DNA from: Actinoallomurus bryophytorum
Lineage (GTDB): Bacteria; Actinomycetota; Actinomycetes; Streptosporangiales; Streptosporangiaceae
Direction: 5' to 3'
Assembly: GCF_006716425.1 (NCBI RefSeq)
Contig: NZ_VFOZ01000001.1
Span: 4,588,001-4,652,000, forward strand
Length of the DNA: 64,000 bases
A program made the translations under genes and the position numbers. Below are positions 4,401 through 47,669 of the stretch, in pieces. The notes beneath the pieces were generated by a model, which ran no database searches, had not been told where the DNA came from, and was given only the letters and a program-made list of their open reading frames with translations. Positions within the stretch are counted from its first letter, which is position 1, and the number at the start of each line of letters is the position of its first letter.

Positions 4401-4747
4401 AGCCCCGCCACCCAGCCCCGCCACCCAGCCCCGCCACCCAGCCCCGCCACCCAGCCCCGCCACCCAGCCCCGCCACCCAGCCCCGCCACCCAGCCCCGCC
4501 ACCCAGCCCCGCCACCCAGCCCCGCCACCCAGCCCCGCCACCCAGCCCCGCCACCCAGCCCCGCCACCCAGCCCCCACCCAGCCCCGCCACCCAGCCCCG
4601 CCACCCAGCCCCGCCACCCAGCCCCGCCACCCAGCCCCGCCACCCAGCCCCGCCACCCAGCCCCGCCCACCCAGCCCCGCCACCCAGCCCCGCCACCCAG
4701 CCCGCCACCCAGCCCCGCCACCCAGCCCCGCCACCCAGCCCGCCACC
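4401..4747. repeat. 13-bp minisatellite, about 27 units, upstream of pip
   Basis: Unit AGCCCCGCCACCC repeats from 4401. I count 27 unit starts; most are exactly 13 bp, with variants of 11 bp (at 4570), 14 bp (4659) and 12 bp (4699 and the last). Since 13 is not a multiple of three, all three minus-strand frames read the same 13-residue peptide repeat (GLGGGAGWRGWVA in rotation), which explains the overlapping long ORFs there. Near-perfect identity implies recent expansion by slippage. Confidence 0.95.
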
Positions 4748-5130
4748 TCGGTGGACCGGCGCCCCCAGCTCGGGTACCGCCAAGGCGAGCGCACCATCCC
4801 AGCCGCCGCACAGGACCGCGCTCACCCGACACCCCCGTCGAGAACGACCTAGCTGTGGGCCGTCCTCGACTGGACCACACCGGGGGCCTGCGCGGCTCCG
4901 GCGCGTAAGGCCCGGCGCGTCCCGGGCGTCCGGTCCGTACGTTGACCGCTACGGCCGCTGCCCACCGGGGCGCTCCCCACCCGAGCACCCCCACTCGAGC
5001 CACCCCCGCGCACAGCGCGGCCGCCGTACCCCGGAAGCAGACCACCGGCGCCGCGACCCCATCCCACCTGGCCGGATACCGCACGAAATCCCGGACCGCC
5101 CCCACCCCTGACGTCGGTAAAGTCATCCCC
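4748..5130. other. Intergenic stretch without a recognised gene
   Basis: Between the minisatellite and the MOSC gene only compositional ORFs run through, in several frames. None shows a conserved motif. Upstream extension of the MOSC frame to 4942 is Ala/Pro/Thr-rich and looks non-coding. Confidence 0.55.
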
Positions 5131-27563: not shown

Positions 27564-27812
27564 TCAGCTCCAGATGGCCGTCATGCGCCAGCGACCGTGG
27601 TCGCACTCGAGCTCGTACGTCCGTTCCGGGGTGCAGGACGACCGGGCACGTACCTGCCAGAGCTGGGTGTCCACGTCGTCCTGCGGGCGGCGCAGGGCGA
27701 GCATCTTGAGGAAGGTGATGACCTCGTAGTCGCAGTCGTCCTGACGGAAACACGCCGGAATGTCGCCGCGGATCTCGACCTGGACCGGGTGATCGCACGT
27801 TCGACGCCTCAT
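27564..27812 (-). CDS. Small uncharacterised protein behind a LexA box
   Basis: 82 aa from ATG 27812 (84 aa from ATG 27818). No domain is recognised; it contains four Cys (TCDHP, ACFRQDDCDYE, SSCTPER plus CDHGRW), KMLALRRPQDD and a final WRMTAIWS. The upstream sequence shows a perfect TCGAAC-N4-GTTCGA box directly next to a TAGAGT -10 box. A transcript from that promoter would start at about 27812-27813, so it would be leaderless and the second ATG would be the real start. This implies DNA-damage induction by loss of LexA binding. What the protein does is unknown. Confidence 0.6.
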   Translation of the reverse strand: MRRRTCDHPVQVEIRGDIPACFRQDDCDYEVITFLKMLALRRPQDDVDTQLWQVRARSSCTPERTYELECDHGRWRMTAIWS

Positions 27813-27818
27813 GTCCAT

Positions 27819-27847
27819 ACTCTATCGAACATGAGTTCGAATGTCTC
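27819..27847 (-). promoter_or_regulatory. LexA (SOS) box inside a -35/-10 promoter
   Basis: TCGAACATGAGTTCGA (27825-27840) matches the actinobacterial LexA consensus TCGAAC-N4-GTTCGA at all 12 fixed positions. On the minus strand GAGACA (27847-27842) and TAGAGT (27824-27819) are 17 bp apart, and the box fills that spacer. LexA binding would block RNA polymerase. Confidence 0.8.
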
Positions 27848-45925: not shown

Positions 45926-46320
45926 TCGAGAGGATCAATCCGCCGGAGCTGGGACGTCCCTCCGGCTTCTCGCACGCGGTCGTCACAGACGCGCACCGGA
46001 TGGTGTTCCTGGCCGGGCAGACCGCGCTGGACGCGGACGGCCGGATCGTCGGCGACGGCGTCGTCGGGCAGTTCGAGCAGGCCCTGAGCAACGTGCTCAC
46101 CGCGCTCGCCGCGGCGGGAGGGAGCCCACCCGACCTGGTCGGCATGACCGTCTACATCGTCGACATGGACGACTACCGCGCGCACGCCAGGGAGATCGGC
46201 GCCGTGTGGCGCAGGCTCGCCGGCACGGACTACCCGGCGATGGCCGGTATCGGCGTGAGCCGTCTGTGGGATGCCGAGGCGCTGGTCGAGGTGCAGGGCG
46301 TCGCCGCGCTCACCCGGTGA
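45922..46320 (+). CDS. RidA family protein (enamine/imine deaminase)
   Basis: 132 aa. MVFLAGQTALDADG, QFEQALSNVLTALAAAGGSP (20) and a C-terminal DAEALVEVQGVAAL. RidA proteins hydrolyse reactive enamines or imines. The product of 2-aminobenzoyl-CoA monooxygenase is an enamine, so a deaminase role fits and supports anthranilate rather than salicylate as substrate. In this divergent RidA the last Glu (EVQGVA) is present; the Arg normally before the end is not clear. Confidence 0.88.
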   Translation: MIERINPPELGRPSGFSHAVVTDAHRMVFLAGQTALDADGRIVGDGVVGQFEQALSNVLTALAAAGGSPPDLVGMTVYIVDMDDYRAHAREIGAVWRRLAGTDYPAMAGIGVSRLWDAEALVEVQGVAALTR

Positions 46321-47152
46321 TCATGCCGGCGACGTACCCGCGCGCGGACTCCTCTAGCCGCGACCTGAGGCTGAAGAACAGATCCGCCGCGCGAATCCCG
46401 ATCCAGTCCTCGGGGAGGAGCTCGGCGGGCAGGCCGGGGTCGAGATAGGGCAGGCGCCGCCAGTCGGTGAGCACCCGCACGTAGTCGGCGAACGCCTCGC
46501 GCGCCTGCGGCGTGCCGCGCCGCCGCCGGGCGGGCGTGTGCGCGTCGAGGAACTCCCGGTAGTGGAGTTCGAGCTCGTCCAGGTCCCACCAGGCGCGTAC
46601 CTTGGCGGCGAGGTCGCCGAACGCGAGGTGGTCGCCGCGGAACAGGTCGGCGTAGGAGTCGAGCTCGAACCGCCGCAGCATGTCGGTGGTCGCGTCGTGC
46701 AGATGCGCCGGCGCGATCCACACGCCCGGCGCGGCGGTGCCGAACCCCAGCCTGGTCAGCTGCGAGCGCAGGATGTGCCGCTTGTGGCGTTCGGTCTCGG
46801 GCACCGAGAACACGGCCAGCATCCAGCCGTCGGCCAGCGTCGCCCGCTCGCGCCGGAAGATGCGGTCGTCACCCTCACGCAGGATGGCCAGGGCGTCGTC
46901 GGACAGCTCGTAGCCGGCCGCGCCGCCGTGCCGCCGCGCGACGAGGATGCCACGCCGCTTGAGGCGTGAGATCGATGAGCGCACCGCCGGCTCGTCGACG
47001 CGGAGGGCGGCGAGCAGCTCGATCAGCGACGCGACCGAGAGCCAGCCACCATCGGCGCGGGCGTACAGGCCATAGACCGTCACGATGAGATGCCGGGGCT
47101 GGGCCGTACGCGGAGCCGCGCCGGCCTCATCCGTCCGCGAGACCGTCGTCAC
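46310..47152 (-). CDS. PaaX-family transcriptional regulator
   Basis: 280 aa. N-terminal winged helix (LIELLAALRVDEPAVRSSIS, RLKRRGILV) and PaaX core (LADGWMLAVFSVPETERHKR, LGFGTAAPGVWIAP) with a C-terminal domain containing LPYLDPGLPAELLPEDW. PaaX represses phenylacetate genes and responds to an aryl-CoA; here it likely senses the CoA intermediate of this cluster. GTG start 47152. Its 3' end overlaps the RidA gene by 11 bp (convergent). Confidence 0.92.
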   Translation of the reverse strand: MTTVSRTDEAGAAPRTAQPRHLIVTVYGLYARADGGWLSVASLIELLAALRVDEPAVRSSISRLKRRGILVARRHGGAAGYELSDDALAILREGDDRIFRRERATLADGWMLAVFSVPETERHKRHILRSQLTRLGFGTAAPGVWIAPAHLHDATTDMLRRFELDSYADLFRGDHLAFGDLAAKVRAWWDLDELELHYREFLDAHTPARRRRGTPQAREAFADYVRVLTDWRRLPYLDPGLPAELLPEDWIGIRAADLFFSLRSRLEESARGYVAGMITG

Positions 47153-47185: not shown

Positions 47186-47563
47186 TCAGCCGAGCAGCAG
47201 GGTCACCGGGGCGCCGGCTTCCTCCCGGTACGCCTGGACGCTGTAGCCGGTGTCGCGCAGCAGCGTGGTGTACCGGGCGCGGCCGTCCCCGCCCGGCAGC
47301 TCGACCATCGCACGGGCCGCCGGCGTGTGGCGCCGGCGGATCGTCGCCCCGTCGTAGTGGTAGAGCCCCCACCGGGCCCACGGGACGTCGGGGGCCGGAT
47401 CCTCGTGCTGCATCCAGGCCATCCACACGTCGCCGTGGACGTACCAGCAGTGGATCGCGCCCTTGCGCCACGCGCCCTTGTGGCGGATCCAGACCCAGGG
47501 GTTCTGAGCCTCGACCCGATGGGAGCCGGACGGGTAGTGATCAAGCTGACGGGCATCGCGCAT
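47186..47563 (-). CDS. Small uncharacterised protein behind a LexA box
   Basis: 125 aa, no family recognised. Trp-rich: NPWVWIRHKGAWRKG, HCWYVHGDVWMAWMQHED, WARWGLYHYDGATIRRRH, then RARYTTLLRDTGYSVQAY. The Trp/His pattern suggests a compact beta-rich fold. A perfect LexA box ends 13 bp upstream of ATG 47563, with a -10-like GAGAAT overlapping it, so the transcript would be nearly leaderless and SOS-induced. It stands alone between paaX and the sulfatase. ATG 47563 is chosen; the frame to 47599 passes through the box. Confidence 0.7.
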   Translation of the reverse strand: MRDARQLDHYPSGSHRVEAQNPWVWIRHKGAWRKGAIHCWYVHGDVWMAWMQHEDPAPDVPWARWGLYHYDGATIRRRHTPAARAMVELPGGDGRARYTTLLRDTGYSVQAYREEAGAPVTLLLG

Positions 47564-47571
47564 GGTCAGGC

Positions 47572-47601
47572 ATTCTCGAACACAGGTTCGAATGATCACA
47601 A
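47572..47601 (-). promoter_or_regulatory. LexA (SOS) box overlapping a promoter
   Basis: TCGAACACAGGTTCGA (47576-47591) fits TCGAAC-N4-GTTCGA at all fixed positions. On the minus strand TTGTGA (47601-47596) and GAGAAT (47577-47572) are 18 bp apart and overlap the box. Predicted transcription start is about 47565, two bases before the ATG. Confidence 0.8.
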
Positions 47602-47669
47602 GTTTACACTGGTCAAGACATGATCTGTGCCGCCTGACGGAACACGATCAACTCAGCGGATGCCGTTGG

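Follow-up and report, generated by a model that had tools for sequence, protein, structure and literature searches.

A perfect LexA box ahead of a gene for a small Trp-rich protein in Actinoallomurus: a probable lineage-specific SOS gene with relatives in phage contigs

Among the described systems closest to the one considered here is the LexA regulon of Streptomyces venezuelae, where LexA has distinct affinities for its targets and most of the LexA-bound, damage-induced genes are of unknown function (PMC9380542). For E. coli and Salmonella, it is reported that operators nearer to the consensus have a higher affinity for LexA, and that lower affinity goes with earlier transcription (PMC9578287). 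Here, we analyze a stretch of 64,000 nucleotides of the Actinoallomurus bryophytorum genome (contig NZ_VFOZ01000001.1, positions 4,588,001 to 4,652,000; hereafter the window), in which a LexA (SOS) box stands just ahead of a minus-strand gene for a Trp-rich protein of 125 amino acids (aa), termed P0001. Judged from the sequence, LexA very likely controls this gene, which very probably belongs to the SOS response as a lineage-specific component.

An earlier note on this DNA had described a perfect LexA box between positions 47572 and 47601, directly upstream of the gene. Indeed, all 12 specified positions match in the minus-strand reading TCGAACCTGTGTTCGA (plus-strand letters, TCGAACACAGGTTCGA), and 12 nucleotides (nt) lie between the box and the ATG at 47563 of a protein that contains eight Trp residues. 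The second perfect box of the window also precedes a small minus-strand gene, of 84 aa, in the same near-leaderless layout, as the note had stated. Its chance estimate of about 0.004 agrees with a first-order Markov model of the window, which predicts 0.0037 perfect boxes per 64 kilobases (kb), where two are observed. Scanning the window for the exact 16-mer with up to three mismatches gave three matches, two of them being both strands of the other box, versus a shuffle mean of 0.42. In the whole genome (9,466,640 bases in 3 contigs), five perfect boxes were found, versus none in the reversed control and 0.55 expected from the Markov model; for the 10-position core, the corresponding numbers are 48, 3 and 15.8. 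One could argue for a fortuitous palindrome and a gene outside LexA control from the roughly 16 core-type sites expected in the genome and from the 37 of 48 core sites that are flagged inside mechanically called frames, many of which may be chance occurrences. Yet these 37 include the box studied here and those of dinB and the DUF6504 gene, and some sites are so flagged because the mechanical caller extends starts. The complete match, the promoter position, the presence of the box with at most one mismatch in all nine genome copies, and half-sites that hardly vary while the spacer does, make chance a very remote explanation.

The genome encodes a single lexA (one PF01726 match, E = 1.5e-27), and boxes of this type lie ahead of standard SOS genes (Table 1); hence, an SOS system is present and appears to use this motif. 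Together with the retention of the box in the relatives' copies, this supports the reading of the motif as a LexA box. Three further boxes with one mismatch each lie between lexA and the likely start, assigned by eye, of a divergent LysM gene.

Among the genomes searched, the gene occurs in a narrow group of relatives, in which the box accompanies it. A scan of named genomes yielded six homologs, five labeled Actinoallomurus and one Actinomadura. Among 341 genomes of the family, nine carry the gene, namely seven of the eight genomes of the window's genus (its own included) and two of one other genus; an order-level sample of 297 genomes, partly shared with the family set, returned the same nine copies. 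(The loci L053–L058 and L059–L064 represent the same six genomes, obtained via two collections, and each was counted once.) A sample of 394 genomes of the class held no accepted homolog apart from that of the window's own genome: four weak matches (E = 0.002–0.009) were rejected, being partial, lying in unrelated or doubtful frames, and having no box within one mismatch. The operator is found in promoter position with zero or one mismatch in 7/7 genus copies and in both distant genome copies (39% identity). Six genus copies of the box are perfect and one has a single mismatch (L053/L061); the two distant copies, GCGAACGCATGTTCGA and GCGAACAAATGTTCGA, match at 11 of 12 positions each. In the alignment of the seven genus sequences, one of the 12 specified positions varies, in a single sequence, and the other 11 do not vary at all; none of the four spacer positions is invariant. 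Near-invariant half-sites around a free 4-bp spacer are, at the level of sequence, the footprint expected of a dimeric repressor site. Upstream, four genus loci have a sulfatase or a sulfotransferase-like gene as neighbor (the latter assigned by eye, with no Pfam match), and the three others have a different neighborhood in which the box remains beside the gene. Ratios of nonsynonymous to synonymous substitution rates (dN/dS) of 0.10–0.30 in all 21 pairs over the first 86 codons indicate purifying selection on the protein.

The layout of the promoter region suggests how repression could work. In the seven genus copies, 18 bp separate the hexamers TTGnnA and GAnnAT as recognized by eye, the box fills this spacer, and the ATG follows the -10-like hexamer after 6–8 nt. 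A consensus scan of the region gave no sigma-70 match; such scans commonly miss actinobacterial promoters. The longest listed frame, of 137 aa, uses a GTG that lies upstream, beyond the box. However, box and ATG are 12 nt apart in one clade but 10 nt in the other, so that any such extension would change frame, and the protein is conserved from the ATG on; we thus prefer the ATG start, and the messenger RNA (mRNA) is predicted to be leaderless or nearly so. A search for the string CTTGACC...ACTTG, located further upstream, with one mismatch allowed, gave 5 forward and 21 reverse matches versus 9 and 7 in the control, and several of the matches resemble coding sequence by eye. That the gene is a lone one, as had been claimed, holds for the most part: a same-strand gene for a PaaX-family regulator begins 33 bp downstream and may be a read-through partner, yet a PaaX-family gene occupies that place in only two of the seven genus loci (the window and L054), and this neighbor is not conserved.

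As far as can be judged from the DNA, box and gene probably form a transcription unit that LexA represses and that yields one small protein. In the undamaged cell, a LexA dimer sitting between the -35 and -10 hexamers would block RNA polymerase. Upon DNA damage, active RecA would induce self-cleavage of LexA, and the (nearly) leaderless mRNA for the 125-aa protein would be made. If affinity follows closeness to consensus as it does in E. coli and Salmonella, the optimal box would make this one of the most tightly repressed genes in the SOS response of the cell. Across the eight genomes of the genus, 44 perfect boxes were counted (4 to 7 per genome), against none in the reversed control; the 125-aa gene accounts for 6 of them and the 84-aa gene for 7. 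The same analogy predicts tight repression by LexA for both.

Family searches gave little on what the protein would do. P0001 has no match in Pfam (E up to 0.1), NCBIfam or PADLOC, in line with the earlier assignment to an unknown family. Nine aligned family members searched against Pfam at E up to 5 gave only HTH_Tnp_ISL3, in one member (E = 0.15). Against PDB sequences, one match at chance level was obtained (E = 1.7), and against the PHROGs one at E = 0.14. Among the papers listed on LexA in Actinoallomurus, actinobacterial LexA regulons and the Streptomyces SOS response, a partial coverage of the literature, no title or abstract opening names the gene. As a LexA regulon member the gene is of a known kind, but none of the libraries searched contains its protein family. 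A first structure model, built from seven close sequences, was too poor for use (mean predicted local distance difference test score, pLDDT, of 46.3). With two phage sequences added, the prediction that the earlier note had proposed as a check became usable: in the second model (mean pLDDT 80.5), residues 14–82 are predicted as a Tudor/SH3-like barrel, and the best matches among PDB chains are mostly Tudor and chromo barrels over these residues. Such barrels usually bind peptide, protein or nucleic acid, and we therefore tentatively favor, on the basis of this model, a late SOS effector of the partner-binding type, a reading made slightly more probable by the second model. As a soluble protein with a predicted barrel, P0001 may dock on a repair, replication or transcription protein. 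In bacteria, CarD and Mfd bind RNA polymerase through domains of the Tudor-like type, which makes the polymerase one candidate partner.

Alternatively, the protein could inhibit growth or cell division under damage, as lineage-specific small proteins often do and as would suit a tight box, which often guards a harmful product. The composition of P0001 speaks against this: its grand average of hydropathy (GRAVY) is -0.68, and the best 19-residue mean hydropathy of 0.19 leaves it with no hydrophobic segment. The SOS division inhibitors of Gram-positives of the YneA/DivS/ChiZ type combine a membrane segment with LysM, and P0001 was rejected as such a protein, having no membrane segment and no LysM or other Pfam match. 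It was likewise rejected as a small membrane toxin of the TisB type, these being short hydrophobic peptides. Moreover, the LysM gene divergent from lexA, recognized by eye, already fits the known actinobacterial division inhibitor. We thus regard an inhibitory role as improbable.

Accessory factors of mutagenic repair and phage switch factors are the main rivals to a late effector. The former role, in translesion synthesis, would parallel that of the imuA-like and DUF6504-like genes, which are also tightly boxed in this genome. The imuA-like gene and the 84-aa gene each have one of the five perfect boxes of the genome, and on the S. venezuelae plasmid pSVJI1, a hypothetical gene with a box at -14 shares its operon with a gene for DNA polymerase IV (PMC9380542). 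All eight genus genomes have the 84-aa gene with the box, perfect in seven and with a single mismatch in the eighth. Its product looks like a divergent DUF6504 protein: ortholog L080 gives E = 0.034, below the cut-off, and ortholog L079 gives no match. In three of the seven genomes that have both small genes, these lie at most 20 kb apart; in the other four, which are drafts, they are on different contigs. This closeness looks like local synteny, and the two genes may be linked in the four drafts as well. However, no polymerase gene was recognized adjoining P0001 in the loci examined. As a DUF6504 member P0001 was rejected, since it has no PF20114 match and shows no profile similarity to a DUF6504-like alignment (hhalign probability 0.2%). 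A role in mutagenic repair therefore seems rather unlikely.

The phage relatives of P0001 raise the remaining alternative. Plasmid and phage records held no homolog at E up to 0.01 or 0.1 and only chance-level matches at E up to 10, and a first scan of viral contigs also gave none, but two IMG/VR contigs, L071 and L072, do encode homologs (L073 and L074 repeat these two, and L072 holds a stretch identical to L065 in genome G288; each was counted once). In L071, a gene that matches small terminases (4478–4948) lies divergent from the homolog, whose start is at 4995, and is followed by large terminase and portal genes. The box-like sequence of the homolog has two mismatches, and an equal match occurs in 176 of 20,420 windows of 60 bp there. 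The viral record G699 (104,772 bp) contains one core site, which stands ahead of the P0001 homolog, itself opposite to the two nearest called neighbors. In the stretch common to L072 and L065, covered over 19.5 kb by L094, the homolog has its own box and the same opposite orientation, but three other plus-strand frames are called there, of which one looks by eye like a probable real gene. L094 also contains genes for a terminase, a portal protein and a methyltransferase; its small-terminase candidate gives a better score to a minor tail protein. For the other distant copy (L066/L093), near a contig end, none of three scanned proteins matches a phage structural family. In either phage contig, a PHROG 6326 protein is encoded near the homolog (L071, 5508–5903; L072, 5252–5644). 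A gene that is transcribed independently within a phage, from its own promoter and opposite to its neighbors, is known as a phage moron; the orientation and the own box of the L094 copy would suit this class, the three other plus-strand frames less so.

On this ground, P0001 might be an SOS-induced switch factor of phage origin, either a prophage antirepressor that would promote the exit from lysogeny or a tuner of LexA or RecA, whose genus copies are remnants or domesticated. The gene carries the sole core LexA site of the 104.8-kb viral record and has phage neighbors in both viral contigs, and GIL01 gp7 provides a precedent for a phage protein that acts on the LexA of its host (PMC4551915). 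Against a switch factor, the homologs lie near packaging genes with no recognized repressor beside them, the genus copies have no recognized phage neighbors and are under purifying selection, and no DNA-binding domain was recognized in P0001. We hence consider it unlikely. As to origin, the homologs in actinobacterial phage contigs make it about an even chance that the genus gene is of phage-related ancestry, and it may be a domesticated phage gene. A broader scenario, which we regard as possible but doubtful, is that members of an orphan Tudor-like family travel back and forth between chromosomes and phages of actinobacteria together with a high-affinity LexA operator of their own, and that one genus has in this way fixed a phage accessory gene as a tightly repressed part of its SOS response, with a docking mechanism unlike that of known SOS effectors.

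Table 1. Coordinates of the LexA box, the genes and the promoter elements, and the SOS boxes elsewhere in the genome (G000)
Feature	Position or locus	Strand	Remarks
LexA (SOS) box, perfect 12/12	47576..47591	(-)	Inside 47572-47601
125-aa Trp-rich protein (P0001)	47186..47563	(-)	No family in libraries searched; ATG start; residues 14-82 modeled as Tudor/SH3-like barrel
-35-like hexamer TTGTGA	47596..47601	(-)	By eye; TTG invariant in 7/7 genus copies, absent from two distant copies
-10-like hexamer GAGAAT	47572..47577	(-)	By eye; GAnnAT in 9/9 genome copies; overlaps last two box bases
Upstream string CTTGACC...ACTTG	47599..47617	(-)	Kept in 7/7 genus copies
PaaX-family regulator	46310..47152	(-)	33 bp downstream; possible read-through partner
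84-aa gene	27564-27818	(-)	Box 27825-27840; near-leaderless layout
Box ahead of recA	L009		By eye
Box ahead of imuA-like gene	L005		By eye; no Pfam match; among the genome's five perfect boxes
Box ahead of dinB	L036		PF00817
Box ahead of ruvC	L042		PF02075
Box ahead of recN-like gene	L043		By eye; AAA_23 above cut-off, SMC_N below
LexA-type box GCGAACGTATGTTCGA ahead of true DUF6504 gene	L029, G000:C1 near 5390841		PF20114, E = 9.1e-18

Further occurrences of the motif were noted. The identical 16-mer TCGAACACAGGTTCGA, spacer included, is also found at G000:C1:145388 and at G000:C1:3457074, the latter ahead of an AAA_16 ATPase gene, and it recurs in five other genomes of the genus. The sequence GCGAACATATGTTCGA lies about 20 bp upstream of a gene that matches no Pfam family and encodes about 122 aa (L031, G000:C1 near 5763586).

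Altogether, the locus offers a clean case for study: the protein is of no known family, has a predicted binding fold and has relatives in phages, and its gene has an optimal operator within a conserved promoter layout. If induced as predicted, the gene would represent a new and directly testable SOS effector whose operator and gene have been kept together in phage and host. With the S. venezuelae LexA regulon it shares the operator consensus, given there as tCGAAC-N4-GNNCGa, and the placement of boxes near start codons, as at pvnz_37140 (-14) and ruvC (-23) (PMC9380542). Unlike that regulon, the P0001 family occurs in one genome family only, among the 341 family, 297 order and 394 class genomes searched. 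With SOS-controlled phage accessory genes and LexA-linked phage factors such as GIL01 gp7 (PMC4551915), the phage copy is comparable as a small gene within a phage that has its own LexA-type site and is opposite to its nearest neighbors; in contrast to such phage-borne systems, the window copy lies outside recognized phage DNA. DUF6504 (PF20114) genes are likewise small, single-domain and preceded by LexA-type boxes in the same genome, but P0001 matches neither their family model nor their profile. Its modeled fold, finally, may place P0001 near the Tudor/SH3-like barrels, such as the Tudor domains of eukaryotic SETDB1, UHRF1 and PHF1.
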